A stretch of DNA of 47,009 nt from Candidatus Anaerostipes avistercoris (GTDB taxonomy: Bacteria > Bacillota > Clostridia > Lachnospirales > Lachnospiraceae), in contig DWWD01000019.1 of NCBI GenBank assembly GCA_019119895.1, positions 1 through 47,009 on the forward strand, in the 5' to 3' direction. Positions 4,085 to 46,689 of this stretch are shown here, piece by piece (position 1 is the stretch's first letter; every line of letters begins with the position of its first letter). The notes under the pieces were generated by a model. It made no database searches and had not been told where the DNA came from. It saw only the letters and a list, made by a program, of their open reading frames with translations. A program made the position numbers and the translations under genes.

Positions 4085-5375
4085 ATGGCGGATGGAATTG
4101 ATAGAAATAGTCCTTTCAATATTCACAGTATATTTATATTCTATTTATTTTAATATTTTTTTTCAAAGACGCAAGCAAAGTATATTTGTGATAATCGGAG
4201 TTGGAATTCTTGTGATATGGCAACTAGATATTCTGGGAATTGTCGGTAAACTACCATTAGCATGGAATATTGCTGTGACGATAGGAGTTACGTTGTTTAC
4301 TGTGGTAAACATATATACAGGTAAATTTTGGAAAAAATGTTTCTTTGCTGTTGTATTTGATGCTATATGGATGCTGATTGAGACATTGATAAATGATCTA
4401 TTGACGATTTATTGTGTAAATCTTGCAAATTCACACATTTTTGGCTCTTTGACCTCAAAACTTCTTTTTCTTATTGTAATTATAGCTTTAAAAAAAGTGT
4501 TTACTAATGAAGAACTAAAGGAACTGCCTGCGGGGCATAGTATTTTATTGGTTTTTGTTCCTATAGGAAGTATATATATTATGAATGCTGTTTTTGTTTT
4601 GGCATATAAAGCTAAATGGAAATATTCAGAAATTTATTCTTTGTTCTCAGTAATTATATTATTGCTTATCAATGTATTGATTTTTTACATATATATAAAA
4701 CTGGCAGATGATTTACAGGTTAGGAGAATGAATTTGGTATATGAACAGCAGTTAGAATTATGTGAAAGACATCAGGATGAAACCGAAATTTCGATGTTGC
4801 AGATGAGAGATGTTAAGCATAATATGAGGAATAATTTTGTTTCTATTCTTGCTTATGCGGAACAGGGAGAATGCCAAAAAATTATTAGGTTTGTGAATGA
4901 TGTAATGGAAGAAGGAAAGCTAAAAACATCCGGAACAACTAATACTGGAAATATTGTGACGGATTCTTTAGTTGCATATTGGAAAAGAACTGCGGAGATT
5001 GAAGGAATAAAATTTTATTCTGATTTAAATATTCCAATGGATATGCCTTTTAAGGGAGCAGATTTAAGTCTGATTTTAGGAAACCTACTGGAAAATGCTG
5101 TGGAAGGAGCAAGAAAGGCGAAGAAGAGAAAATATATACGATTAAAAATAAAATACGATAAAAACAACTTGTTAATAACGGTAGAGAATAGTTATGTAGG
5201 AGCCTTGATAAAAGGAAAAGGGGAAGAATTGAAAACTACAAAAATTGATGCAATCAATCATGGAATTGGTTTGCCATCTGTCAGAAGAACTGCAAGACGG
5301 TATCATGGTACAGTGTCAGTGGATGATTCAGTGCCGGAGCGTTTTCTGATTAGAGTAGTGTTGTATGGATTATGA
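4071..5375 (+). CDS. GHKL-domain sensor histidine kinase (AgrC-like)
   Basis: 434 residues. ATG 4071 is chosen because GGAGG lies 9-10 bases upstream. The N-terminal half (about 1-210) is strongly hydrophobic with around six predicted helices, as in AgrC peptide receptors. It is followed by a linker with the phospho-acceptor histidine in MRDVKHNMRNN near residue 250. The C-terminal GHKL ATPase shows the N box GNLLENAVEGA and a glycine box HGIGLPSVR. By family knowledge it senses the cyclic autoinducer made from the downstream agrD/agrB genes and phosphorylates the LytTR regulator. Confidence 0.9.
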   Translation: MLVDKWRMELIEIVLSIFTVYLYSIYFNIFFQRRKQSIFVIIGVGILVIWQLDILGIVGKLPLAWNIAVTIGVTLFTVVNIYTGKFWKKCFFAVVFDAIWMLIETLINDLLTIYCVNLANSHIFGSLTSKLLFLIVIIALKKVFTNEELKELPAGHSILLVFVPIGSIYIMNAVFVLAYKAKWKYSEIYSLFSVIILLLINVLIFYIYIKLADDLQVRRMNLVYEQQLELCERHQDETEISMLQMRDVKHNMRNNFVSILAYAEQGECQKIIRFVNDVMEEGKLKTSGTTNTGNIVTDSLVAYWKRTAEIEGIKFYSDLNIPMDMPFKGADLSLILGNLLENAVEGARKAKKRKYIRLKIKYDKNNLLITVENSYVGALIKGKGEELKTTKIDAINHGIGLPSVRRTARRYHGTVSVDDSVPERFLIRVVLYGL

Positions 5376-5403
5376 ATGATTAAAAATAGTTGGAGAGGAA
5401 ATA

Positions 5404-5430
5404 TTACATAAATACTCGATATTATGACAT
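5404..5430 (+). promoter_or_regulatory. 27-bp repeat, copy 2: candidate LytTR operator of agrDB
   Basis: 26 of 27 bases match copy 1 at 2347-2373. It sits 61 bases before the agrD start, similar to the 68 bases at the other copy. The paired TNACAT elements are 21 bp apart. Placement upstream of the autoinducer genes fits the positive feedback known for agr systems. No clear -10/-35 pair is visible. Confidence 0.6.
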
Positions 5431-5491
5431 GTAAATGCATAAAAGGAAGTTTTGGTGTAGATTAAAAAAAAATGAAAGGAGATTCAAAATT

Positions 5492-5641
5492 ATGAGATCA
5501 AAAAATGAAAAACTTCAGCCAGCAAAAGTTCTGGCCAATGTCTCTCTGAAACTTGGAAAGATGTCTGCTAACAGTGCATGCGCATATATTTACCATCAGC
5601 CGAAGATGCCTGAAGCATTAAAAGAATTAAAGAACAAGTAA
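5492..5641 (+). CDS. agrD: AgrD-type cyclic lactone autoinducer precursor
   Basis: 49 residues from ATG 5492, preceded by AAAGGAG; an upstream in-frame ATG at 5435 lacks a ribosome site. The layout is that of clostridial AgrD: an amphipathic N-terminal half (KVLANVSLKLGKMSANSA), a central cysteine segment CAYIY, and the charged C-terminal recognition tail HQPKMPEALKELKNK. AgrB cleaves after the ring-closing residue, so the predicted signal is a five-residue thiolactone C-A-Y-I-Y with a short N-terminal tail. The exact N-terminal trim cannot be read from sequence. The agrB start is one base beyond the stop codon. Confidence 0.9.
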   Translation: MRSKNEKLQPAKVLANVSLKLGKMSANSACAYIYHQPKMPEALKELKNK

Positions 5642-5642
5642 T

Positions 5643-6227
5643 ATGAGATATCTATCGGGAAAAATAACGGATTTTATTATTAAAGCCGGTGTAATTTCCG
5701 AAGAGTCGTATGAGATATATCAATATGGCTTTCAAATCGGAATGGAAATGTTCAGTTGTTTTGCGGTTTGCTTGGCCATAGCGATATATCTGCATATGAT
5801 TGTAGAATTTGCAGTGTTTACTATGATATTTATGCTGTTGCGGACATATGCTGGTGGAATACATTTGAATAGTTTTTCTGGATGCTTCATATGTTCTGTT
5901 ATGGTTCAAACAATTATATTGATTATCAACAGACAATATACTCTTACATGCCCTGTATCATGGTTAATTATTTTTTGTGGGGCTCTTCTAATATTAAAAG
6001 TTGCACCGGTTGAAAATATCAATCGGGAACTAGATCTAGACGAGAGAAAACACTGTAAAGAAGTTACTATAAAGGTTTTAATAGGTATAATATTTTTTTC
6101 TGCAGGATGTACAGTTGGCAGAATTAGTAATATTTTATCTTTAATAGCATTGACTATTTTGCAAGTTTTGGTTTCTCAGTATTTGGGAATTGCTAAATAT
6201 AAATATGAAAAGAATAGGCGGAGATAG
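5643..6227 (+). CDS. agrB: AgrB peptidase / accessory gene regulator B
   Basis: 194 residues, a membrane cysteine endopeptidase that cleaves AgrD and closes the thiolactone ring. The catalytic pair of the family is present as H74 in YAGGIHLNSF and C81 in SGCFICS. Hydrophobic segments near 35-55, 57-70, 83-95, 105-120, 145-160 and 165-180 fit the multi-pass topology. It is separated from agrD by one base, so the two genes are co-translated. It ends in a strong terminator. Order here is kinase first, then D and B, unlike the staphylococcal B-D-C-A order. Confidence 0.95.
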   Translation: MRYLSGKITDFIIKAGVISEESYEIYQYGFQIGMEMFSCFAVCLAIAIYLHMIVEFAVFTMIFMLLRTYAGGIHLNSFSGCFICSVMVQTIILIINRQYTLTCPVSWLIIFCGALLILKVAPVENINRELDLDERKHCKEVTIKVLIGIIFFSAGCTVGRISNILSLIALTILQVLVSQYLGIAKYKYEKNRRR

Positions 6228-6257
6228 TAGAAAAATCTATTATTTCCGCTTTTTTAA
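6218..6257 (+). terminator. Rho-independent terminator of agr transcript
   Basis: The stem GCGGAGATAGTAGA / TCTATTATTTCCGC (two G-U pairs) is followed by a T tract. It starts within the last codons of agrB. Confidence 0.85.
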
Positions 6258-6783
6258 ATAGAATAGTTATATAAATTTATTTATAGAATGCACATAGCTT
6301 TGCCATAAGTATATAAAAAAAACAGCTTTTTACAGCAAGGCTTAATTTTGGTGCTGTCTGTGAATTGCTGCCAAGAGAACTAAGGGCAGTTTTTTATTAT
6401 AAGATAGAATCATAAAGTAAACACATAGTTAGATCTATACATTTATTTTGTAGGATTTTTAGTTTGACGAAATAAAATTGATTTATAAAAAAGACATCAT
6501 CAAAATATTCAATATCAATTTATTAAAAAAATGCCAGGAAGATTCAAAAGCTCCTGGCATTTTTGTTTGGCGGAATTGTTAATGTTTTGCGGTGAGAAAC
6601 GATACCAGAACTCCTTTTCAGTTAAAGAAATTTTGATAAAAGGTCTTTAGATAAGTTGGAAAAAATTTTGTAAAGAAATTCACCGTTTTTCGATTTTTCG
6701 TTGGGCATTGGTCTGTCCTTGTTATGAAAGGGAGGATCAAGCATCTTTTACTAAGGCTATATGCAGAGGGGAGGTGATCCCCT
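6258..6783. other. AT-rich intergenic stretch, no gene
   Basis: About 525 bases without a supported gene. A weak hairpin CTGCC / GGCAG followed by T residues lies near 6365-6398, and a strong terminator lies at 6531-6565. The last part carries the leader of the sigma-like gene. No convincing promoter is identified. Confidence 0.5.
6531..6565 (+). terminator. Strong intrinsic terminator in intergenic region
   Basis: The perfect stem ATGCCAGGA / TCCTGGCAT is flanked by A and T tracts, so it could work in both directions. It may insulate the integration module from agr transcription. Confidence 0.88.
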
Positions 6784-7194
6784 TTGAAACTGAATTGTCA
6801 GGAAAAAGAAATAGTGCAAAGAAAATTTTGTACTTATTGTATCAAAGTTCTGCATGGTGAGACGTTAAATTATTTTGATGAGCTAAATCGGCAAAGAGAG
6901 CGGGAAGTGATATTTTCTGAACTTCTGCAGAAAGACCTGGATACTCTGTATTGCTGTGATGATTATGATATGGCAGATTATTTCACTGTTATGGGCAGGC
7001 AGGTTCCTGTCCGTGACGAGTGGATCAGCATGGCGCTGAAAAAACTTCCTGTGAAAAAGCGGGAAATTATTCTGATGCTTTATTTTTTGGATATGACAGA
7101 GAAAGAAATTGCTGAGTGTCTAAAATTGGTGCAGAGTACCATACATTATCATAAAGATGATTCTTTAAGGCTTTTGAGAAAATTGATGGAGTGA
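6784..7194 (+). CDS. Sigma-70-like regulator of the Tn916-type integration module
   Basis: 136 residues starting at TTG 6784, behind a near-perfect ribosome site (GGGGAGGTGATCC). The C-terminal part (about 75-136) is a sigma region 4-like HTH: VRDEWISMALKKLPVKKREIILMLYFLDMTEKEIAE, then HYHKDDSLRLLRK. In Tn916/Tn1549-type elements a protein of this kind precedes a small HTH protein and xis-int and controls element gene expression. The same order is seen here. Use of TTG with such a strong ribosome site is typical of this gene. Confidence 0.82.
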   Translation: MKLNCQEKEIVQRKFCTYCIKVLHGETLNYFDELNRQREREVIFSELLQKDLDTLYCCDDYDMADYFTVMGRQVPVRDEWISMALKKLPVKKREIILMLYFLDMTEKEIAECLKLVQSTIHYHKDDSLRLLRKLME

Positions 7195-7201
7195 TTTACA
7201 T

Positions 7202-7441
7202 ATGAAATCAAAGAAACACAGAGAAATGCCGGAGTTTGAAACTATCCAAGCGGCTATCAAAGGTGATGTCGATGCGATTAATCAGATATTGTGCTATTTT
7301 CAGCCGTTTATTCAAAGTGAGTGTAAGAGAGAATACAAGGATGAATTTGGAAGAACCTATTATGTAACCGATGAATATATGAAACGACGATTAGAGACAA
7401 AGCTGATTACAAAGATTCTGGATTTTGAGATCCAGCTATAG
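7202..7441 (+). CDS. Helix-turn-helix protein of conjugative-transposon type
   Basis: 79 residues, 7 bases after the sigma-like gene. The pattern FETIQAAIKGDVDAINQILCYFQPFI, then YYVTDEYMKRRLETKLITKIL, matches the small Tn916 ORF8-type HTH protein that regularly follows the sigma-like gene. In that family it is thought to take part in control of the element. The N-terminal helix resembles a sigma region 2 remnant. The module order supports the call. Confidence 0.78.
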   Translation: MKSKKHREMPEFETIQAAIKGDVDAINQILCYFQPFIQSECKREYKDEFGRTYYVTDEYMKRRLETKLITKILDFEIQL

Positions 7442-7852
7442 CTCAAGGGTGGATACATTCCCTTTCTATTTCTACGTTTGAGCGAATTGAACCTTGAAAA
7501 TTGAATACTTTATCCTGCAGGACAAAAGAAAACAGTGGAGCCGGGGAGCAAATACGCCAGGATGATTCAGCATCAATTTTCACTTTCCGACATGATGTCG
7601 CAAAGTTTGTATATATAGATAAGGAATTTGAAGATGAATAGGAGCGAAGAAATGTTATGCTGCGAGCAGAGTGCGGGAACTTTGTGGCGAAGATCCTGTT
7701 TTTGATAATGATACTTCCGGAGAGGCTGCTCCGGTCTGAAAAGATGGTGAGATACCAATGAGGCTATTCCCCGACAGCCGCCTGCAGGATGTTAGAAAAG
7801 TAATGGTAGTGAAGCTATATATGTTTACAAATACTTAAGGGAGAATGATGTA
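7442..7852. other. Intergenic stretch of Tn916-type module
   Basis: About 410 bases without a supported gene. It holds the TTGAACCTTGAAAATTGAATA-like sequence often found between the HTH gene and xis in Tn916/Tn1549 relatives, and a GCCTGCAGGATG-like segment repeated loosely near 7512 and 7791 (CCTGCAGGA). Short frames such as 7634-7690 lack ribosome sites. Confidence 0.45.
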
Positions 7853-8050
7853 ATGCAGAGGACGCCAAAAAAATTAGAAAAGAAAAGATTAGTAAGATAT
7901 AAAGAAGGTGCTGCGATGTATAGCATGGGAATGAATAAGTTTCAAGCATTGGCAAAAGATGCAGGAGCAATTTTGAAAATAGATAGAATGGTATTAGTGG
8001 ATTTAGATACATTCGATCAGTATCTTGAAACATTTCGTGTGAAGGAATAG
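7853..8050 (+). CDS. Excisionase-like protein (DUF6462 type)
   Basis: 65 residues, with GGGAG upstream. A small winged-helix/MerR-like domain is indicated by RYKEGAAMYSMGMNKFQALAKDAGAILKIDRMVLVDLDTFDQYLETF, with the usual excisionase pattern of a helix, a 'KIDRMVLVD' strand and a closing helix. Proteins of this size lie directly before the integrase of Tn916/Tn1549 relatives and help Int excise the element. Here the ribbon-helix-helix gene lies between it and int. It could equally act only as a repressor. Confidence 0.72.
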   Translation: MQRTPKKLEKKRLVRYKEGAAMYSMGMNKFQALAKDAGAILKIDRMVLVDLDTFDQYLETFRVKE

Positions 8051-8059
8051 AGGGAAGAT

Positions 8060-8106
8060 TTTTCGTATAACAGAAAATAAGTGTTGACTTTCCGTTAAAC
8101 CGAAAG
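8060..8106 (+). promoter_or_regulatory. Two tandem imperfect dyads: candidate operator of the RHH repressor
   Basis: Two similar dyads, TTTTCGTATAACAGAAAA at 8060-8077 and CTTTCCGTTAAACCGAAAG at 8088-8106, have centres about 28 bp apart. The second fills the -35/-10 spacer of the promoter at 8084-8112. Tandem short dyads across a promoter are typical of ribbon-helix-helix autorepression; binding by the next gene's product is inference. Confidence 0.6.
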
Positions 8107-8112
8107 TATAAT
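8084..8112 (+). promoter_or_regulatory. Sigma-A type promoter of RHH-int genes
   Basis: TTGACT at 8084-8089 and TATAAT at 8107-8112 with an exact 17-base spacer. The start codon of the RHH gene is 28 bases further on. Confidence 0.85.
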
Positions 8113-8140
8113 GATTATGAAATGGATGGAGGTGTATGAG

Positions 8141-8320
8141 GTGGCTAGAACAGGAAGGCCAAAGTCAGATAATCCGAAAAATAGTTTAATCGGTTTGAAA
8201 CTGACAGAGGATGAAGCCACAAAACTTAGAGAATATGCGTCCAAACATGGCATGACCATAACAGAAGTGTTGCAAAGAGGAATTGACCTGCAATATAAAA
8301 TGGAAGAATCCTCAGAGTAG
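8141..8320 (+). CDS. Ribbon-helix-helix (CopG/Arc-type) repressor
   Basis: 59 residues from GTG 8141, chosen because GGAGG lies 8 bases upstream and the protein then opens with the common ARTGRPKSDNPK. A ribbon strand (NSLIGLKL) is followed by two helices (TEDEATKLREYASKHG, TITEVLQRGIDLQY). Such proteins bind short dyads as dimers. Two such dyads lie in its own promoter. It probably limits its own and integrase expression and so the mobility of the element; this is inference. Confidence 0.8.
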   Translation: MARTGRPKSDNPKNSLIGLKLTEDEATKLREYASKHGMTITEVLQRGIDLQYKMEESSE

Positions 8321-8357
8321 CCAGTGCGAAAACTCTTTCCTTGTGAAAGGAGCTAAA

Positions 8358-9599
8358 ATGGCGCAATCAAGGAAAGATAACAAAGGGAGGGTATTAAGAA
8401 AAGGTGAAACCCAGCGTAAATGTGATGGGAAATATGTATATACCTACACCGATCCAGAGGGACGGCGAAAGAGTATTTACTCCAAAGACATTAAAACGCT
8501 GAGGGAGCGGGAAGAACAGTTGATTAAAGACCAATTAGATGGGTTGGATACATATGTTGCCGGGAGTGCGACAATCAATTTTGTTTTTGACAGATATATT
8601 TCTACGAAAGCAGAATTGAGAGCAACAACGATGACTAACTACAAATATATGTATAATCGTTTTGTCAGAGAGGGTTTTGGGAGAAAGAAGATTGCCGGAG
8701 TAAAATTTTCAGATGTTCTGCAGTTCTATCAGCATTTGGTGAAGGACAAGGCAATGCAGATTAACACGCTGGAGACAATTCATACGGTACTTCATCCAAC
8801 CTTTCAGCTAGCACTGCGGGATAATATTATCCGGACAAATCCGAGCGATGGTGTTATGGCACAAATAAAAAAACTGCCAGGAAAAAATCATGGTGTTCGT
8901 CATGCTTTGACGTTGGAGCAACAACGAGCCTTTATCAGATATATAGAGGATAATCCGAAGTTTGACCGCTGGGTAAGTATTTTCAAGTTTTTGCTTGGAA
9001 CAGGATGCCGGATTGGGGAGGCTATCGGTATTAGATGGGAAGATGTAGATTTTGAAAAACGACTAATCAACATCAATCACAGCTTAGTTTATTATAGTAG
9101 AGACTACAAAGAACATCCCATGTGTACGTTTTCTATATCCTTGCCAAAAACAGAAGCAGGAATACGTATTATCCCTATGATGGATGCTGTCTATGAAGCT
9201 CTACAGAAAGAACGGAATGAGCAGCAGGAAAACGGATTTAATGAAACAGAAATTGACGGTATGAAGGGCTTTATCTTTATGAACCGTTATGGAAATGTAC
9301 ATAATCCGCAGGCCATCAATCGGGCAATCAAGCGTATTTATGAATCTTACAACGCAGAAGAGATGGTAAAGGCTGCAAGAGAACACAGAGAACCGCTCTT
9401 GATACCACATTTCTCATGCCATCATTTGAGACATACCTTTTGCTCAAGGTTTTGTGAGAATGAAACAAATTTAAAGGTGATTCAGTCTATCATGGGCCAT
9501 GCGAATATAGAGACTACGCTGGACATTTATGCAGAAGTCACCGAAACAAAGAAACACGAAGCAATCGAAAAGTTAGCATATAAAATAGACGTATTTTAG
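8358..9599 (+). CDS. int: Tyrosine integrase, Tn916 family
   Basis: 413 residues from ATG 8358, behind AAAGGAG. It catalyses excision and integration of the element. There is an N-terminal arm-binding region (about 1-65), a SAM-like core-binding domain (about 70-170) and a catalytic domain. The catalytic set is complete: R218 (TGCRIGEA), K264 region (SLPKTEAG), H355 and R358 (HHLRHT), H381 (MGHANI) and nucleophile Y391 (LDIYAE). It is the last gene before the junction with the metG fragment, the usual position of int at an element end. It is intact, so the element may still move. Confidence 0.95.
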   Translation: MAQSRKDNKGRVLRKGETQRKCDGKYVYTYTDPEGRRKSIYSKDIKTLREREEQLIKDQLDGLDTYVAGSATINFVFDRYISTKAELRATTMTNYKYMYNRFVREGFGRKKIAGVKFSDVLQFYQHLVKDKAMQINTLETIHTVLHPTFQLALRDNIIRTNPSDGVMAQIKKLPGKNHGVRHALTLEQQRAFIRYIEDNPKFDRWVSIFKFLLGTGCRIGEAIGIRWEDVDFEKRLININHSLVYYSRDYKEHPMCTFSISLPKTEAGIRIIPMMDAVYEALQKERNEQQENGFNETEIDGMKGFIFMNRYGNVHNPQAINRAIKRIYESYNAEEMVKAAREHREPLLIPHFSCHHLRHTFCSRFCENETNLKVIQSIMGHANIETTLDIYAEVTETKKHEAIEKLAYKIDVF

Positions 9600-39933: not shown

Positions 39934-40143
39934 ATGAAACAGATTGAAATTTGTATCCATCCGGATGGAAAGATTGATGCTGAGACGTTCGGCATCAAAG
40001 GAAAAGGCTGCCTGAAATATGTAGAATTACTGGAAAAAATGCTGCATGCGCAGACAGTGGATTCTGATTATACGTCAGAATATTATGAGACAGAAGAAGA
40101 ATTGACGCAGATTCAGGAAACGGAAATGAAAATAAAACGATAA
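39934..40143 (+). CDS. DUF2997 family protein
   Basis: 69 residues from ATG 39934, preceded by GGAGGAAAGG. It opens with IEICIHPDGKIDAETFGIKGKGCLKYVELLEKML, the signature of DUF2997, a small ferredoxin-fold-like family. The family regularly neighbours DUF1257 and a Ycf46-type AAA+ ATPase; both lie downstream here. Biochemical function is unknown. It is the first gene of a long co-directional run with mostly very short gaps (20, 2, overlap, 10, 37, 77, 1 bases). Confidence 0.8.
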   Translation: MKQIEICIHPDGKIDAETFGIKGKGCLKYVELLEKMLHAQTVDSDYTSEYYETEEELTQIQETEMKIKR

Positions 40144-40163
40144 AAAAAGAGGAGTGGAACATT

Positions 40164-41324
40164 ATGGGAAAGAATGAAAAAGTGAAATACATTCCCAAAA
40201 CAGGTTTTGCTTTCTTTGGCCTGAGCTGTGTGACCTACTGGAGAATGTATCAGGATACGAAACGGTGGAAAGGGTATTTCCTGCTGTTTTTTCTTGCGGG
40301 ACCTTTTAACCTGGCAAACCTTATATTTGGGCTGTTTAATGTAGTCAATACAATAAGAGTTAATTTTATGATGCTCCAGATCCTGATTTTCATATTACAG
40401 TGGGGAGCTGGGATAATTTCCGTGCTGAAATTCAGAAATGAATACTGGATGACCTTTGAAATGTATGGAACAGATATCAGCCAGAGAGACGAAGCCCTGC
40501 GGGAAAGAATCCGGAAAGAAACAAACATGAAAGAGCCTCTGGAAACTGATTTATCGGCTGATCATCTGCGAAAAATAAAATGGCCGTGGCTGGCTCTGCC
40601 GATGTTTGCCTGGGCCGGCTTCGGATATGCCACAGGAAAAGCCCATGTGAATAAATACATGAAATGGATGGCGGTGTATCTTCTTATGCTGTGCTGTTTC
40701 CTTTTGTGTATGATCGTGATTCCTTATGCTCATGACAGGCAGGGATGGTTTTCAGACAGCTTTATGATGACAGTTCTGCCGGAAATGAGAAGGATTATAT
40801 ATCTGATCTGGCTTGCAAGCATCATTCACAGTTTCTCAAAGCGAAAAGAATATCTTTTGTATCTGGAAGCCTATGAAAAAATCCGGCCGGACGAGGAAGA
40901 AATCATGAAAACAAGGGTGATGCGCTATTATGAAAAGGAAAGTCACCGAAATACAGAGAAAAAGCCGGCAAAACCTGTGCCAAAAGAAACAGAGCCAGTA
41001 TCGAAAGCACCGGTCAGAGAAAGAGTGCAGAAGCCGCTTTCCGGCCGGGCTGTAGAGGTAAAACCTGAGAGTCCGGGGCAAAAGATTGATATTAACCGAT
41101 GCGGGGAAGAGGAACTGGCAAAGCTTCCTGGAATTAATGCAATTTTAGCCCAGAAGGCTATCGGATATAGAGAAGAAAAAGGAGCATTCCAATCAGTGGA
41201 AGAGCTGATTGATTTTCTAGGAGTTAAGCCTCACATGGCGGTTCAGATTTTAAAAATGGCAGAAGCCATTCCGGTACAAAAGGATGACAGGAGGAAGCAC
41301 ATCGGACGTGTGCTTGATATCTGA
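40164..41324 (+). CDS. Membrane protein with C-terminal helix-hairpin-helix domain
   Basis: 386 residues; GAGGAG lies 13 bases before the ATG. Membrane helices are predicted near 32-58, 65-88, 140-158, 168-190 and 205-222. A long charged linker with Lys/Glu/Pro repeats (about 245-305) follows. A ComEA-like helix-hairpin-helix pair ends the protein (about 307-365: IDINRCGEEELAKLPGIN, IGYREEKGAFQSVEELIDFLGV). HhH modules bind nucleic-acid backbones, so a membrane-anchored nucleic-acid binder is suggested. The gene ends 2 bases before the radical SAM gene. Confidence 0.75.
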   Translation: MGKNEKVKYIPKTGFAFFGLSCVTYWRMYQDTKRWKGYFLLFFLAGPFNLANLIFGLFNVVNTIRVNFMMLQILIFILQWGAGIISVLKFRNEYWMTFEMYGTDISQRDEALRERIRKETNMKEPLETDLSADHLRKIKWPWLALPMFAWAGFGYATGKAHVNKYMKWMAVYLLMLCCFLLCMIVIPYAHDRQGWFSDSFMMTVLPEMRRIIYLIWLASIIHSFSKRKEYLLYLEAYEKIRPDEEEIMKTRVMRYYEKESHRNTEKKPAKPVPKETEPVSKAPVRERVQKPLSGRAVEVKPESPGQKIDINRCGEEELAKLPGINAILAQKAIGYREEKGAFQSVEELIDFLGVKPHMAVQILKMAEAIPVQKDDRRKHIGRVLDI

Positions 41325-41326
41325 TT

Positions 41327-41959
41327 ATGAGGATTCACAGAATTTTAAGAGAGACTTCTGCGGAAGGTCCGGGACTGCGTTATTGTGTCTGGGTACAGGG
41401 ATGCAGCCATCACTGTCCCGGATGCTTTGCGCAGGACACCTGGGATCCGGAAAAAGGTCAGTGGATAGAAATAGAAGACATGAAAGAAGATTTGTGCAGA
41501 GCCATTCAAAGTGCAGCGAAGAAAGGGAAAAGGATGGAAGGTCTTACTCTGTTAGGGGGAGAGCCTTTTGATCAGGCGCAGGAAGCGGTACAGCTGGCGG
41601 AAGAGGCAAAGAAACATGGCCTGAGTGTCCTTACATTTACCGGTTACCGGCTGGAGGACCTGGAAAAGAAAGGACCGGAGGAAAGAGAATTATTAAAGAG
41701 AACGGATCTGCTGATCGACGGTCCTTTTGAAGAAGAAAAAAAGAGCTTTGACCGGCCGCTTGCGGGATCCTCTAATCAGAGATTTCAATTCCTGACAGAC
41801 CGGTACAGCAGGGAAGATATCATGTCCTGGAAAAATTCTTTTGAAATCCGGATCGAACCGGATGGAAGGATAAGAATCAACGGGATGGGAAATACAGAAA
41901 TATTGAAAAAGTATGAAAAAGGGAGGAAGCACAATGGCAGTGAAATATCACGGGATTGA
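41327..41959 (+). CDS. NrdG-like radical SAM activating enzyme
   Basis: 210 residues starting 2 bases after the previous stop, with no ribosome site of its own, so probably translationally coupled. Radical SAM cluster C-x3-C-x2-C in VQGCSHHCPGCFAQ, then LTLLGGEPFDQ (G-G-E motif) as in activating enzymes of glycyl-radical proteins. No glycyl-radical partner such as NrdD is encoded nearby. The setting, beside a Ycf46-type ATPase and DUF1257/DUF2997, suggests a distinct target. The last 26 bases overlap the ATPase gene. Confidence 0.85.
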   Translation: MRIHRILRETSAEGPGLRYCVWVQGCSHHCPGCFAQDTWDPEKGQWIEIEDMKEDLCRAIQSAAKKGKRMEGLTLLGGEPFDQAQEAVQLAEEAKKHGLSVLTFTGYRLEDLEKKGPEERELLKRTDLLIDGPFEEEKKSFDRPLAGSSNQRFQFLTDRYSREDIMSWKNSFEIRIEPDGRIRINGMGNTEILKKYEKGRKHNGSEISRD

Positions 41960-43592
41960 TGTAAAGTTTGCGAACCTGGTAAAGGCAAGATTTCCGTTTG
42001 TGTATATACCTACCTGGGAAGAAGACCGGGCGCTGCAGATGATTTTTGACGCAGCAGAAAATCCGGATTTTTTCCAAAGCGGACGGGAAGTGTATGTCTG
42101 GAGCCAGACGACTGGTATCCGGAAAAAAGGAGAACCGGGGAAAAACAATAATACAGTCCATCCGTCTGCAGCCATTGATTTTGCAGAGAAAACGGAAGAA
42201 AACATGATTCTTGTACTAAAGGATTTTCATGTATTTTTCGGGACCGGGAACCGGGCGCCGGATTACGCCCTGATTCGCAGGCTGAGGGATTATCTGTCCA
42301 GCAGCCGGTCATCAGGGATGTTTATGAAGACCATTGTATTTTTATCTCCGGTTTTAGTCCTGCCGGAAGATATGCAGAAGGAAATCACAGTCCTGGAATT
42401 TCCTCTTCCGACGGCAGATCAGATACAGTCTGTCATGGATGATCTGATTGAAACAAATGCGGATGTTATCCAGGTGGATTTAGACAAAAGTGAGAGAAGA
42501 AGTCTGGCGAAGGCAGCTTTGGGGCTGACCCTTCAGGAAGCAGAAAATGCTTTTTCCAAAGCTATGGTAGAACTGAAAGGATTAAACCGGAAGGCCTTTC
42601 GGACAGTAATGGAAGAAAAGAATCAGGTGATACGCAAAACCGGGATTTTGGAATTTATAAAATCAGATTTAAGTCTGGAAGACATCGGAGGGCTGGAGAA
42701 TCTGAAAAAATGGCTGCTGAAAAGAAAAGATTCATGGGGGGACCGGGCAGCGTTTTATCATCTGCCGGCGCCGAAAGGCGTACTGATCACAGGAGTGCCT
42801 GGATGCGGAAAAAGTCTGACGGCCAAGGCCATGAGTGCGATCTGGGAACTTCCTCTTTTAAAAATGGATATGGGAAGGATTTTCAGCGGCGTGGTAGGAA
42901 GTTCAGAGGAAAATATGAGAAAAGCCATTGCTACGGCGGAAGCAGTGTCGCCATCTATTTTATGGATTGATGAAATTGAAAAGGGATTTGCCTCCGGAGG
43001 AGAAGCCACCGGGGACGGAGGAACTTCGGCGAGAGTTTTCGCGTCCTTCCTGACCTGGATGCAGGAGAAAGAGGCGCCGGTTTTTGTCATTGCCACCGCA
43101 AACAATATCAGGACCCTGCCGCCGGAATTGTTAAGGAAAGGCCGTTTCGATGAGATCTTTTTTGTGGATCTTCCGACTTTTTCAGAACGAAAGAAGATTT
43201 TTGAACTGCATATCCGGAAGAAGATATGTTCCTGCAAAGCGGGAGAAAATTTTGTTGTCACAGAAGAACTTCTGGAACATCTGGCTGCAATCAGTGAAGG
43301 GTTTGTAGGAGCGGAGATTGAACAGGTGATTTATAATGCGCTGTATGAGGCTTTCTTTGAAAAGAGAAATGTGGTGCCGGAAGATATTGATCAGGCAGCG
43401 GCCATGACGATTCCGCTGTCCGTGACACAAAAGGAGCAGATCAGGGAACTGAGAGAATGGGCCAATATCAGAGCCGTAGCTGCCACAGCCAAGGAAGATC
43501 TGAAACAGTATCAGGTCAGCGGACAGTCGCATAAAGATGATAAAGAAGGAGATATTAATGCGAGCCGGGGAGGACGGCTGCTTGATTTTTAG
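41934..43592 (+). CDS. Ycf46-like AAA+ ATPase
   Basis: 552 residues from ATG 41934, behind GGGAGG. It has an N-terminal inactive-looking domain (about 1-230: LVKARFPFVYIPTWEEDRALQMI, as in Ycf46) and a classical AAA+ core (about 250-460). The core shows Walker A GVPGCGKS, Walker B SILWIDEIEKGF, sensor 1 VIATANNI, and arginine finger context ELLRKGRFDEIFFVDLP. Ycf46 is a plastid/cyanobacterial AAA+ protein of the FtsH-like/classical clade. It is overlapped by the radical SAM gene and followed within 10 bases by DUF1257. A remodelling role for RNA or protein is inference. Confidence 0.88.
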   Translation: MAVKYHGIDVKFANLVKARFPFVYIPTWEEDRALQMIFDAAENPDFFQSGREVYVWSQTTGIRKKGEPGKNNNTVHPSAAIDFAEKTEENMILVLKDFHVFFGTGNRAPDYALIRRLRDYLSSSRSSGMFMKTIVFLSPVLVLPEDMQKEITVLEFPLPTADQIQSVMDDLIETNADVIQVDLDKSERRSLAKAALGLTLQEAENAFSKAMVELKGLNRKAFRTVMEEKNQVIRKTGILEFIKSDLSLEDIGGLENLKKWLLKRKDSWGDRAAFYHLPAPKGVLITGVPGCGKSLTAKAMSAIWELPLLKMDMGRIFSGVVGSSEENMRKAIATAEAVSPSILWIDEIEKGFASGGEATGDGGTSARVFASFLTWMQEKEAPVFVIATANNIRTLPPELLRKGRFDEIFFVDLPTFSERKKIFELHIRKKICSCKAGENFVVTEELLEHLAAISEGFVGAEIEQVIYNALYEAFFEKRNVVPEDIDQAAAMTIPLSVTQKEQIRELREWANIRAVAATAKEDLKQYQVSGQSHKDDKEGDINASRGGRLLDF

Positions 43593-43602
43593 GAGGTAGA
43601 TC

Positions 43603-44073
43603 ATGTCAATGACATTAACGATGGTTGCATTGTCTGTCGCAGTGACCGGCACGTGCAGCATAAGCAGTATTCGGACATTCCTTAAATTCCGACAGCAGGA
43701 AAAAATGCTGGGAAGGGAGACGGCCAGAAGGATTGAGACGAATTTCACAGATGAAAGTCTTTTGATCAAGACATTAAAAGAACATGGAATGGAAGTAACG
43801 CTGGAAGAAGATGGGGCAGTCCGGGCGTCTGCGGAAGAGAAGGAACTGATATATGCAAAGAACCCGCAGGGAGTCTATGAAGTGGATTTAGGCGGACAGC
43901 CGGAGTCAGAAGAGCTGGTTCAGGAATTAATCCTGCTGGAAGAAGAGTATGGATTTAATGTTCAGGAATTTACGTATCAGAGACTGAAAGAACATCTCTC
44001 GTCAGAAGGAATGGAGGTTCATTCCGAAGAGGTATTAGAGGATAATACCATTAAGATCGTCCTTAATGTGTAA
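43603..44073 (+). CDS. DUF1257 (Ycf35-like) protein
   Basis: 156 residues, AGGAGG 7 bases before the ATG. The N-terminus has a hydrophobic start (TLTMVALSVAVTGTCSI), possibly a membrane anchor or signal-like helix, unusual for the family. Residues about 45-156 follow DUF1257: ESLLIKTLKEHGMEVTLEEDG, then EEYGFNVQEFTYQRLKEHLSSEGM and closing TIKIVLNV. DUF1257 and DUF2997 proteins share a ferredoxin-like fold and co-occur with Ycf46-type ATPases. Function unknown. Confidence 0.75.
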   Translation: MSMTLTMVALSVAVTGTCSISSIRTFLKFRQQEKMLGRETARRIETNFTDESLLIKTLKEHGMEVTLEEDGAVRASAEEKELIYAKNPQGVYEVDLGGQPESEELVQELILLEEEYGFNVQEFTYQRLKEHLSSEGMEVHSEEVLEDNTIKIVLNV

Positions 44074-44110: not shown

Positions 44111-45169
44111 ATGCCATTTTTCATGATCAGAAATGATATTACAAAAGTCAGAGCCGATGCGATTGTAAATCCGGCCAACGAGGAACTGCTGGAGGGAAGC
44201 GGAACCAGCCGGGCCATCTATCTGGCAGCAGGGGAAGAAAAGCTGGACAAAGCCTGCCGTAAGATTGGAAGATGTGAACTGGGAAAGGCAGCGGCAACTC
44301 CTGCCTTTCGTCTGACTGCGCAGTATATTTTTCACGCTGTGGGACCGGTATGGATCAATGGGGAAAGAGGAGAGGAAGAAATTCTCTATCATACTTATAT
44401 GGAAACCCTGCGTCTGGCAGAAGACTACCGTCTGGATTCCATAGCGTTTCCGCTGCTTTCCGCAGGAAATTACGGTTTCCCAAAAGAGATTGCCATGAGA
44501 ACTGCGGTAAGAGCCATCAGTGAGTTTCTTATGGATCATGAAATGACGGTATATCTGGTTCTTTATGACCAGGATTCTTTTGCTATCAGCAGGAAATTGT
44601 CAGAATCCATAGAAGCTTACATAGACGATCACTATGTAGAAGAAAATGATGAAAGGATTCCGGGAGATGAAGATTACCCGGAAACGGCAAAAGAAGAATT
44701 TCGGATGAAACTGGATAATATACCGGTTACGGCATCCATGCCGCGTCCGCAAAGAGCCGCACAGCGCATTGAACAGAGAGCAGATCAGGAAGTTCAGATG
44801 AATTTTCTGGAACAGCTGCTGAGAAAAAAAGAAGAAACCTTTTCTCAGGCACTGCTGCGGATGATTGATGAGAGAGGCTTGAAGGATTCTTATGTATACA
44901 AGAAAGCAAATATTGACCGGAGACATTTTTCAAAGATTCGGAATCATCCGGATTATACGCCAAATAAAAAGACAGTGATCGCATTTGCGGTTGCGCTGGA
45001 ACTGTCTCTGGAGGAAACCAATGATCTGCTGATGAAAGCAGGATACGCATTTTCCAACTGTTCAAAATTTGATGTGATCATTCGTTATTTCATTGAAAAA
45101 AAAGATTATGATATTTTTGAGATTAACGAAGCATTGTTTTCATTTCATCAGCCGACACTGGGAGAATAA
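44111..45169 (+). CDS. Macro-domain protein with C-terminal helical domain
   Basis: 352 residues, GAAAGGAAA before the ATG. The macro domain (about 1-175) shows IVNPANEELLEGSGTSRAIYLAAG, FHAVGPVW and AFPLLSAGNYGFPKEIA, the ADP-ribose-binding loops. The C-terminal part (about 235-350) is helical with HTH-like TFSQALLRMIDERGLKDSYVYKKANIDRRHFSKI and ALELSLEETNDLLMKAGYAFS. The combination is common in Firmicutes and not characterised. It may hydrolyse ADP-ribose esters or ADP-ribose-1''-phosphate, the product class derived from KptA activity. Confidence 0.88.
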   Translation: MPFFMIRNDITKVRADAIVNPANEELLEGSGTSRAIYLAAGEEKLDKACRKIGRCELGKAAATPAFRLTAQYIFHAVGPVWINGERGEEEILYHTYMETLRLAEDYRLDSIAFPLLSAGNYGFPKEIAMRTAVRAISEFLMDHEMTVYLVLYDQDSFAISRKLSESIEAYIDDHYVEENDERIPGDEDYPETAKEEFRMKLDNIPVTASMPRPQRAAQRIEQRADQEVQMNFLEQLLRKKEETFSQALLRMIDERGLKDSYVYKKANIDRRHFSKIRNHPDYTPNKKTVIAFAVALELSLEETNDLLMKAGYAFSNCSKFDVIIRYFIEKKDYDIFEINEALFSFHQPTLGE

Positions 45170-45246
45170 ATGTCTCCTGTCATGCGACCAAACCAATTCA
45201 GAAATCCGGTATCATAAGCTTATCAAAAGAAAGGAAGGTAAGCAGA

Positions 45247-45909
45247 ATGAAAAAAGGATTAACAGAATTGGTTTTTATTTTAGATAGAAGCGGCTCTATG
45301 GCAGGACTGGAAAGTGACACCATCGGCGGGTTTAACGGAATGATCCGGAAACAGAAAAAGCAGAAAGGCAAGGCAAATGTAACGACTGTTTTGTTTGATG
45401 ACCGCTGTAATGTGATTCATGACAGGTTTCCGTTAAAAACAATTCTGCCGATGACGGAAAGGGATTATTATGTAGGAGGCTGCACGGCGCTGCTGGATGC
45501 GGTGGGAAAGACAATCCAAAAGATGGCGAATATCCAGAAACATCTGCCGGAGAAAAAAAGAGCGGAGAAAGTGATTTTTGTTATCATGACAGATGGAATG
45601 GAAAATGCCAGCCGGGAATATGGATATAAGGAAGTAAAATCCATGATTGAAAAAGAAAAGGAAATCTACGGATGGGAGTTCCTGTTTCTGGGCGCCAATA
45701 TTGACGCGGTGGCGGAAGCAGGCAGAATGGGAATCCGAGCAGACCGATCCGTTACTTTTCAAAATGACAGCCAGGGAATCGCGGTAAATTATCAGGCAGT
45801 GGAAGAAACCTTAAGCTGTATGCGGGCAGCAGCTTCTATGGCTCAGGTTGATGGCAGATGGAAAGAGGCAATCGAGAAAGATTACAGAAAGAGAAAGGGG
45901 AAAAAATAA
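45247..45909 (+). CDS. VWA-domain protein (TerY-like)
   Basis: 220 residues, GAAAGGAAGG upstream. A single von Willebrand A domain with the MIDAS motif D-x-S-x-S in FILDRSGSMAG, the threonine in GGCTALLDAVG and the aspartate in IMTDGMENAS. No signal peptide, so it is cytoplasmic. Such stand-alone VWA proteins act as metal-dependent adaptors and often pair with AAA+ ATPases, here the Ycf46-like protein three genes upstream. The stop is one base before the ADP-ribosylglycohydrolase start. Confidence 0.88.
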   Translation: MKKGLTELVFILDRSGSMAGLESDTIGGFNGMIRKQKKQKGKANVTTVLFDDRCNVIHDRFPLKTILPMTERDYYVGGCTALLDAVGKTIQKMANIQKHLPEKKRAEKVIFVIMTDGMENASREYGYKEVKSMIEKEKEIYGWEFLFLGANIDAVAEAGRMGIRADRSVTFQNDSQGIAVNYQAVEETLSCMRAAASMAQVDGRWKEAIEKDYRKRKGKK

Positions 45910-45910
45910 T

Positions 45911-46689
45911 ATGGCAGTACTTGGAGCCATACTGGGAGATATTGCAGGGTCCCGATTTGAATTTAAACGGCCGTTTCGGCTGGATATACAGAACTGCGAA
46001 CTGTTTACGAAAGATTGTGAATTTACGGATGATACGGTGATGACACTGGCGGTCAAAAAAGCGGTCATAACGAGAGCAGATCTTGTGAAAACCATGAAGG
46101 AAATCGGAAGGCATTATCCTGACTGCGGATATGGGGAAAGTTTCGCAGGTGGATACTGGGAGAAGATACAAAACCTTATAACAGTTATGGCAACGGATCC
46201 GCCATGAGAGTGTCTTTTATAGGGGAATATTTTAACCGTTTGGAAGATGTGGTCCGGGAAGCGGAAAAAACGGCAGCAGTGACTCATAATCATCCGGAGG
46301 GAATCAAGGGAGCCGTTGCCACGGCGGTATGTATCTGGATGGCAAAGAATGGAAAAACAAAAGATGAAATTTATGATTATGTGATAAAGCAGTATCCGGC
46401 AGAAACTTATGAATACAGCATAGATAAGGATTTGAATTATCTGAGAAAACATTACCGCTGGAATGAAACCTGCATGGGAAGCGTGCCGGCAGCCATGAGA
46501 TGTTTTTATGAGAGCAGTTCTTTTGACGGCTTTATGAGAAATCTGTTTCAGCTGAACTGTGACTGTGATACCATTGGAGCAATCGGCGGAGCCGTAGCAG
46601 AAGAATTCTATCATGGCGTCGGATTTGACGGGGAAGAGATTCTGAGAAGATATCTGGATGACAGACTCTGGGAAATATGGAAATTATAA
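45911..46689 (+). pseudogene. ADP-ribosylglycohydrolase, interrupted by a frameshift
   Basis: The first frame, from ATG 45911, gives GAILGDIAGSRFEF and the metal-binding FTDDTVMTLAV, then loses homology after GESFAGGYW and stops at 46207. The family continuation EDTKPYNSYGNGSAMRVS begins near 46161 in the -1 frame. It runs to 46689 with NHPEGIKGAVATA and the second metal site DCDTIGAIGGAVAEEFYH. Joined, the gene would be about 259 residues, normal for the DraG/ARH family. No classical slippery heptamer is seen. A real mutation, an assembly error or an unusual frameshift cannot be separated here. Confidence 0.82.

Follow-up and report, generated by a model that had tools for sequence, protein, structure and literature searches.

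A conserved five-gene module with a Ycf46-type AAA+ ATPase, an NrdG-like radical SAM protein and a C-terminal peptide shared by the ATPase and its membrane partners

Among the described systems closest to the locus treated here are the tandem AAA+ ATPases of the Cdc48/p97 type and the Ycf46-Ycf35 pair of plastids and cyanobacteria. p97 docks cofactors through its own C-terminal tail. Ycf46 and Ycf35 are retained in many red-algal plastid genomes, and a 2015 paper reportedly described a photosynthesis phenotype of a Synechocystis ycf46 mutant, without a mechanism. In excerpts of one account both are treated as conserved hypothetical proteins (PMC5940233), and excerpts of another equate ycf35 with DUF1257 and place Synechocystis ycf35, duf2997 and the ferredoxin gene fed7 in one cluster (PMC4284462). 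The present locus lies on contig DWWD01000019.1 of Candidatus Anaerostipes avistercoris (Lachnospiraceae; assembly GCA_019119895.1), of which the whole stretch analysed, positions 1 to 47,009 of the forward strand (47,009 nucleotides), is called the window. Five open reading frames (ORFs), all on the + strand, fill positions 39934-44073 and encode a DUF2997 protein, a membrane protein with an HhH domain, an NrdG-like radical SAM protein, an AAA+ ATPase of a family which we take to be Ycf46, and a remote DUF1257 (Ycf35-type) protein. They represent a conserved, mobile and membrane-associated five-gene unit, and its AAA+ and HhH proteins share a C-terminal peptide, which is new here. A preliminary description of the locus had already read the five genes as one unit in a Firmicute, a host that fits; the peptide and the Cdc48-like tandem AAA architecture go beyond it. 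Among the matches listed from the open-licence literature there was no description of the five-gene module, and a paper may exist elsewhere.

A C-terminal peptide shared within a five-gene unit

The AAA+ protein (41934-43592, + strand; PF00004, 2.7e-29), whose first AAA domain is degenerate, ends in RGGRLLDF, and the membrane protein (386 aa; 40164-41324, + strand), with its C-terminal HhH_3 domain (PF12836, 3.3e-15), ends in GRVLDI. A genome-wide pattern match at gene ends places the codons of these tags, GRLLDF and GRVLDI, each together with the stop codon, at 43572-43592 and 41304-41324 of the + strand. The comparison covered 96 loci, namely the window, 80 named loci and 15 stretches of further relatives. 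With the strict tag written as R-x-[ILV]-[DE]-[FILVWY]-COOH, 41/49 AAA+ proteins in module loci carry it, as do 57/63 members of the HhH/transmembrane (TM) family, a count that takes in a few proteins in which no HhH domain was detected, such as the TPR protein of locus L057. The strict tag is absent from the DUF1257 (0/46), DUF2997 (0/43) and radical SAM proteins (0/46) of these loci, 0/135 together, and it ends only 4 of 4666 other ORFs in module loci and 1 of 4678 elsewhere, spurious ORFs being included in both counts. Shuffling of the last 30 residues yielded means of 0.02 and 0.05 matches, with maxima of 1 and 2. The tag is restricted to the AAA+ protein and its membrane partners.

Because the strict pattern was written after the first ends had been seen, independent support matters. 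A glycine at position -6, which is not part of the pattern, is present in all 41 tagged AAA+ proteins, and in modules outside the 96-locus set the tag was found on 3/3 AAA+ and 4/4 HhH proteins, one of these AAA+ ends, RTFEF, falling outside the strict form. A slightly wider pattern recovers the tag on both the AAA+ protein and an HhH protein in 36/41 complete loci, and none of nine AAA+ proteins found without the module in a sample of the phylum carries it. The linker ahead of the tag is variable, chiefly in the HhH proteins. Ends of the RGGR type occur in 39/47 loci with an HhH gene, in 0/18 with a radical SAM gene and no HhH gene, and in 2/111 with neither; the RGGR form goes with the HhH partner rather than with the radical SAM protein. 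In the same 18 loci DUF2997 is present in 17 and the tag in two.

In the whole genome of the window, the DNA pattern G-[R/S]-x-hydrophobic-[D/E]-hydrophobic-stop, which covers one form of the tag and leaves, for example, forms devoid of the glycine outside the search, has eight matches, two of them being the AAA+ and HhH genes. For this one form, none of the other six ends a clear protein gene: two lie in tRNA-Lys genes, and the remaining four stand at the end of open frames with lengths of 8, 9, 27 and 44 codons, of which one lacks a true stop. From these sequences we infer that the tag is a docking signal for a putative common receptor. A short C-terminal peptide with a hydrophobic last residue might also serve as a degradation signal for a general protease; this is very unlikely, considering that the AAA+ motor is itself tagged, that the searched form ends no further clear protein gene of the genome, and that no protease was seen by eye among the recurrent neighbours of the module.

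The complete module, five genes on one strand, is present in 41/96 loci, in 11 gene orders and with a span of 3.6-8.1 kb. Its share among the named loci, 38/80, is no prevalence, as these were the best-scoring ones by AAA+ alignment similarity. Since 41 one-strand loci occur in 11 different orders, the clustering of the five genes exceeds chance, and the radical SAM and HhH genes, whose conservation with the AAA+ gene was the weak point named in the preliminary description, are indeed kept with it. Four loci (L034, L040, L047 and L060) end at contig ends, and L022 holds a broken AAA+ gene with DUF1257. In the window the DUF2997 gene is followed after 20 nt by the HhH gene, this after 2 nt by the radical SAM gene, and the AAA+ gene after 10 nt by the DUF1257-like gene. 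The AAA+ gene, with its ATG at 41934, overlaps the radical SAM gene by 26 nt; analyses of the AAA+ protein ran from 41937, one codon past this ATG, or from the start of the ORF at 41913.

The AAA+ protein, its partners and the DUF1257-like protein

The AlphaFold2 model of the AAA+ protein (pLDDT 90.1, pTM 0.84, 53 sequences in the alignment) aligns in Foldseek with both AAA domains of p97/Cdc48, AFG2 and Rix7, the 50 matches listed extending over 528-595 columns with E values of 1.7e-23 to 4.4e-21. By sequence, Pfam detects the second AAA domain only, which carries GVPGCGKS, DE and arginines invariant in the alignment; a Walker A motif was looked for in the first domain, residues 1-240, and not found. 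The chain holds two AAA domains, and does not show Walker A and B motifs in both, as a Cdc48-like tandem AAA protein would. As modelled, it is a tandem AAA protein similar to Cdc48/p97, with a first domain predicted to be inactive and a second one predicted to use ATP, and because the fold resembles the p97/Cdc48 type, it may form a hexamer and unfold polypeptides. Among the PHROGs families it matches phrog_8638, for which no function is annotated there.

The HhH protein of the window has three hydrophobic segments (residues 39-57, 60-78 and 168-186), and at least one such segment is found in 58/63 members of the HhH/TM family; together with the HhH_3 match this upholds the membrane-anchored HhH protein of the preliminary description. 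Tagged partners in bacteria differ in their domains and include an Mrr-type nuclease, an HhH array, a TPR protein and a protein that combines GYF with HhH. A Paenibacillus plasmid encodes two membrane proteins with variants of the tag, RVIHF and RVIRL. In locus L048 eight HhH-family ORFs stand in a row ahead of the module (4299-9338), seven of them tagged, and directly behind the module of L057 (7809-8546) an ORF combines a hydrophobic start, an Mrr-type nuclease domain and the tag GRRLDV.

On three viral contigs (L187, L197 and L202) a tagged WGR-domain protein and a tagged DUF6744 protein are each encoded near a Ycf46-type AAA+ gene. These WGR proteins are the nearest hint at an action of the module on RNA, the role that had been put forward in the preliminary description, and they hint at nucleic acid rather than RNA, WGR being described, in excerpts of the source, as a DNA-binding domain of MolR-like factors (PMC7824862). 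Within the module itself no support for an RNA-related role was found, no RNA-related gene was seen by eye among the recurrent neighbours, and no paper on such a role was among the open-licence matches listed. We regard an RNA function as highly improbable. The published comparative-genomics prediction of it, to which the preliminary description had referred, was not found in the open-licence literature; the paper may exist outside it.

The small protein downstream of the AAA+ gene (156 aa; 43603-44073, + strand; hydrophobic residues 5-23) had been assigned to DUF1257. The assignment stands as one of remote homology by profile comparison and not as a Pfam match, since PF06868 is matched neither by this protein nor by any other in its genome. 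Iterated hidden Markov model (HMM) profiles connect it to cyanobacterial DUF1257, and hhalign against the latter gave a probability of 93.5 with E 2.3e-7 over 78 columns. DUF1257 members of an Omnitrophota contig, a Chloroflexi contig, the Paenibacillus plasmid and a viral contig pass the Pfam cut-off, and thus bridge the gap between the window protein and DUF1257. Module members L062 and L156 remain under the cut-off (0.026 and 0.024), and L049, L053 and L074 have no match. The window protein is DUF1257 only as a remote homologue. Searches of the PDB by sequence with DUF1257 and DUF2997 returned no convincing match. A hydrophobic start of the DUF1257 protein is seen in 32/44 radical SAM loci (25/44 when only the first 45 residues of the ORF itself are counted) and in 0/21 cyanobacterial loci, read from the MSHFS start; it is typical of the module, although it also occurs elsewhere.

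As to the reader of the tag, a relaxed form of the peptide ends the AAA+ protein in 22/22 genomic loci with DUF1257 only (L022 and 21 cyanobacterial loci whose ends are almost identical), vs 1/22 loci in which the AAA+ gene is alone, which favours DUF1257 as the receptor as far as genomic loci are concerned.

The radical SAM protein, DUF2997 and a proposed mechanism

The DUF2997 protein (69 aa; 39934-40143, + strand) matches PF11211 at 5.7e-16 and with 58.6 bits vs a cut-off of 24.1, so the family had been named correctly. In its G-x-x-G-x-x-C motif the two glycines are conserved in 39 and 41 of 42 sequences, and the cysteine in all 42. The radical SAM protein (210 aa; 41327-41959, + strand) exceeds the cut-off of Fer4_12 (PF13353, 1.3e-37), falls just short of that of Radical_SAM (27.6 vs 29.5 bits) and stays under that of the NrdG model TIGR02491 (117.2 vs 126.1 bits). 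CX3CX2C and GGEP are present in 46/46 relatives, and GPG in at least 42/46. It had been described as NrdG-like and lacking a glycyl-radical partner, and this proved correct: no glycyl-radical enzyme is encoded near the module, and Gly_radical has six matches in the genome, none of them on this contig. A Fer4_12 protein is encoded no more than about 3 kb from each match; one of these proteins, at C27, is of the NrdG type.

Genomic loci with the radical SAM gene contain DUF2997 in 42/46, DUF1257 in 44/46 and HhH in 44/46 cases. In viral loci with this gene the numbers are 17/17, 5/17 and 1/17, respectively, and in loci without it DUF2997 is present in 5/50 genomic and 15/63 viral cases. Co-occurrence in 17/17 viral loci makes DUF2997 the likeliest partner of the radical SAM protein. 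The tie rests on the viral loci, because the genomic ones couple all three families, and this limits its weight. More tentatively than the docking of the tag, the sequences suggest that the radical SAM protein matures DUF2997. Two plasmids (L134 and L136) carry a related radical SAM gene next to the gene of another kind of AAA protein, accompanied by PIN or kinase/FHA/phosphatase genes.

An NrdG-like sequence with conserved CX3CX2C, GGEP and GPG motifs, tied to a small protein with conserved glycines and cysteine, also brings to mind a glycyl-radical device, in which a glycine of the G-x-x-G-x-x-C motif or of the RGGR tag would be radicalised. Its simple form, with the radical on the tag, was rejected, as GGR ends follow HhH and are missing from all 18 radical SAM loci without it. 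For DUF2997, the motif is kept in 4/4 examined proteins from loci devoid of the radical SAM gene, and is therefore not necessarily the target, which speaks against the device and equally against a maturation at this site; furthermore, each of the genome's six glycyl-radical genes has its own Fer4_12 neighbour. The device as a whole is improbable.

The explanation that we propose is a Cdc48-like unfoldase at the membrane whose parts are joined through a common C-terminal docking tag, with the radical SAM protein maturing DUF2997, and we consider the case for and against it evenly balanced. An AAA+ hexamer, its first domain inactive and its second using ATP, would pull on polypeptides, and this motor would be tethered at the membrane by the HhH proteins and by the hydrophobic start of the DUF1257 protein. 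The tag of the AAA+ protein and its membrane partners would dock into the putative common receptor, which would let proteins that differ in their outer domains (HhH, GYF, TPR, nuclease) plug into one machine, and the radical SAM protein would act on DUF2997, perhaps at G-x-x-G-x-x-C. In a broader form, which we put forward tentatively and with more doubt than trust, bacteria and phages would share a class of machines built around one Cdc48-like motor, to which a protein would belong by virtue of its last five residues. The motor and its interchangeable partners would all end in R-x-[ILV]-[DE]-hydrophobic and dock to one putative receptor, and a radical SAM protein would mature DUF2997; in bacteria the partners would be HhH membrane anchors and GYF, TPR and Mrr-nuclease proteins, and in large phages WGR and DUF6744 proteins.

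Several observations weigh against the tagged unfoldase. The query TM-scores of the AAA+ model in Foldseek are only moderate (0.42-0.61), and the DUF1257 model (pLDDT 77.9) matched no solved fold, the best E value being 0.16. Many loci of the sample are from Gastranaerophilales and cyanobacteria, so that the sequences are not independent. Among the complete modules four lack the tag on the AAA+ protein and one on the HhH protein, the AAA+ protein of the Paenibacillus plasmid ends in RRISH and has no tag, and the eight genome-wide matches to the DNA pattern compare with 14 for the reversed control, for the one form of the tag searched. The hydrophobic DUF1257 start also occurs in 3/4 other loci with DUF1257 and DUF2997, and in these four loci the relaxed tag ends the best AAA+ protein only once, a second AAA+ protein of L087 carrying it too. 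In viral loci this form of the tag is present in 17/45 cases with the AAA+ gene alone and in 2/14 with DUF1257 but no HhH. Genomic loci with DUF1257 only point to this protein as the tag receptor, whereas the four loci just named do not fit and the viral loci speak against it.

Spread, selection and comparison with known systems

The module is rare, patchy and mobile. Complete modules occur in six phyla, presumably Bacillota, Melainabacteria, Actinomycetota, Armatimonadetes, Fusobacteriota and Bacteroidota, the taxonomy having been checked for five genera or orders, and some hosts being labelled only as bacterium. A contig of the archaeon Methanosphaera carries AAA+ and HhH genes up to its end. 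Outside the 96-locus set two actinobacterial plasmids, examined out of five listed at 48-49% identity, contain the complete module, with four families confirmed by HMM; one of them is typed as conjugative. Of 80 viral contigs one holds a complete module. In the family it was found in 2/250 genomes, that of the window included, along with one fragment, and in a phylum sample of 398 genomes only in the window's own at the stringency used; the nine further AAA+ loci of this sample all lack the module, two of the nine having a weak DUF2997-like match. Seven neighbour clusters recur in at least 4 of 49 module loci and appear generic by eye, the largest, an ABC ATPase, in 12/49 and the others in 7 at most.

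Such a patchy distribution, the location on plasmids, the tagged Mrr-type nuclease of L057 and the presence of AAA+, radical SAM and DUF2997 genes within a contractile-injection cluster of a Treponema plasmid could be accommodated by a system for phage defence or conflict between mobile elements, in which the AAA+ motor would work with tagged membrane proteins or nucleases as effectors. We consider this unlikely. PADLOC returned no specific anti-phage model, but only AAA proteins of the IetA type (6e-24 and weaker), pVip (3e-06) and mad8 (0.0014), none of the seven recurrent neighbour clusters, judged by eye, is a known defence gene, and large viral contigs themselves carry the AAA+, DUF2997 and radical SAM genes. 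Purifying selection on the core proteins also argues against it. Compared with their counterparts in another species of the genus (L019), the HhH, radical SAM, AAA+ and DUF1257 genes of the window differ with dS 0.37-0.69 and dN/dS 0.06-0.21, values that indicate purifying selection on the core of the module.

In the same pair of genomes DUF2997 is identical, and the macro-domain and von Willebrand factor A (VWA) genes downstream have a dS of 0.02-0.04. In steps of 300 bases, identity to L019 is 82-93% across 40.4-44.0 kb, compared with 97-98% just left of the core and 96-99.7% to its right; a second, smaller dip (89-93%) lies at 38.9-39.8 kb. Judged from these profiles, the core was probably swapped as a block by recombination, that is, by allelic exchange. 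Downstream of the module, 44111-46689 holds genes for macro-domain, VWA and ADP-ribosylglycohydrolase proteins, the last of them as two overlapping ORFs in the window and as one ORF in L019. Their membership in the module was considered and rejected, as they come after it in L019 but were absent from the other 14 stretches in the comparison, and no such cluster recurs. The macro protein is found in 2/11 genomes of the genus, the same two that hold the module, and no empty site can therefore be demonstrated.

Set beside known systems, the radical SAM protein keeps the radical SAM motifs of NrdG, yet falls under the NrdG cut-off, has no NrdD beside it, and coexists with a separate NrdG-type gene that adjoins a Gly_radical match elsewhere in the genome. 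If the proposed mechanism is true, an NrdG-like radical SAM protein would be placed outside glycyl-radical enzymes. The Treponema plasmid pTRESU01 (L133) has AAA+, radical SAM and DUF2997 genes on one stretch, its AAA+ protein ending in RKLEM; unlike the module, they are surrounded by VgrG and baseplate genes of the contractile-injection cluster, and no HhH or DUF1257 match was found on this stretch, nor a strict tag among the 44 ends of coding sequences listed. As modelled, the AAA+ protein resembles Cdc48/p97, AFG2 and Rix7 over both AAA domains. Unlike in these, its first domain is without Walker A, its C-terminal tag is common to its membrane partners, a radical SAM protein belongs to the module, and no ubiquitin adaptor was seen in it; if true, the docking model would amount to an undescribed way of plugging a protein-pulling machine together. 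Cyanobacterial loci with DUF1257 have no HhH and no radical SAM gene within the stretches examined (20/21 by name pattern), and their DUF1257 lacks the hydrophobic start seen in the module. The plastid and cyanobacterial Ycf46-Ycf35 pair unites the same AAA+ and DUF1257 families in adjacent genes, as in the module, and the cyanobacterial AAA+ protein ends in QR[LM]EF or alike, close to the module tag. If the proposed mechanism is true, the family would be tied to a Cdc48-like motor with a readable tag, whose partners could be found by sequence alone.

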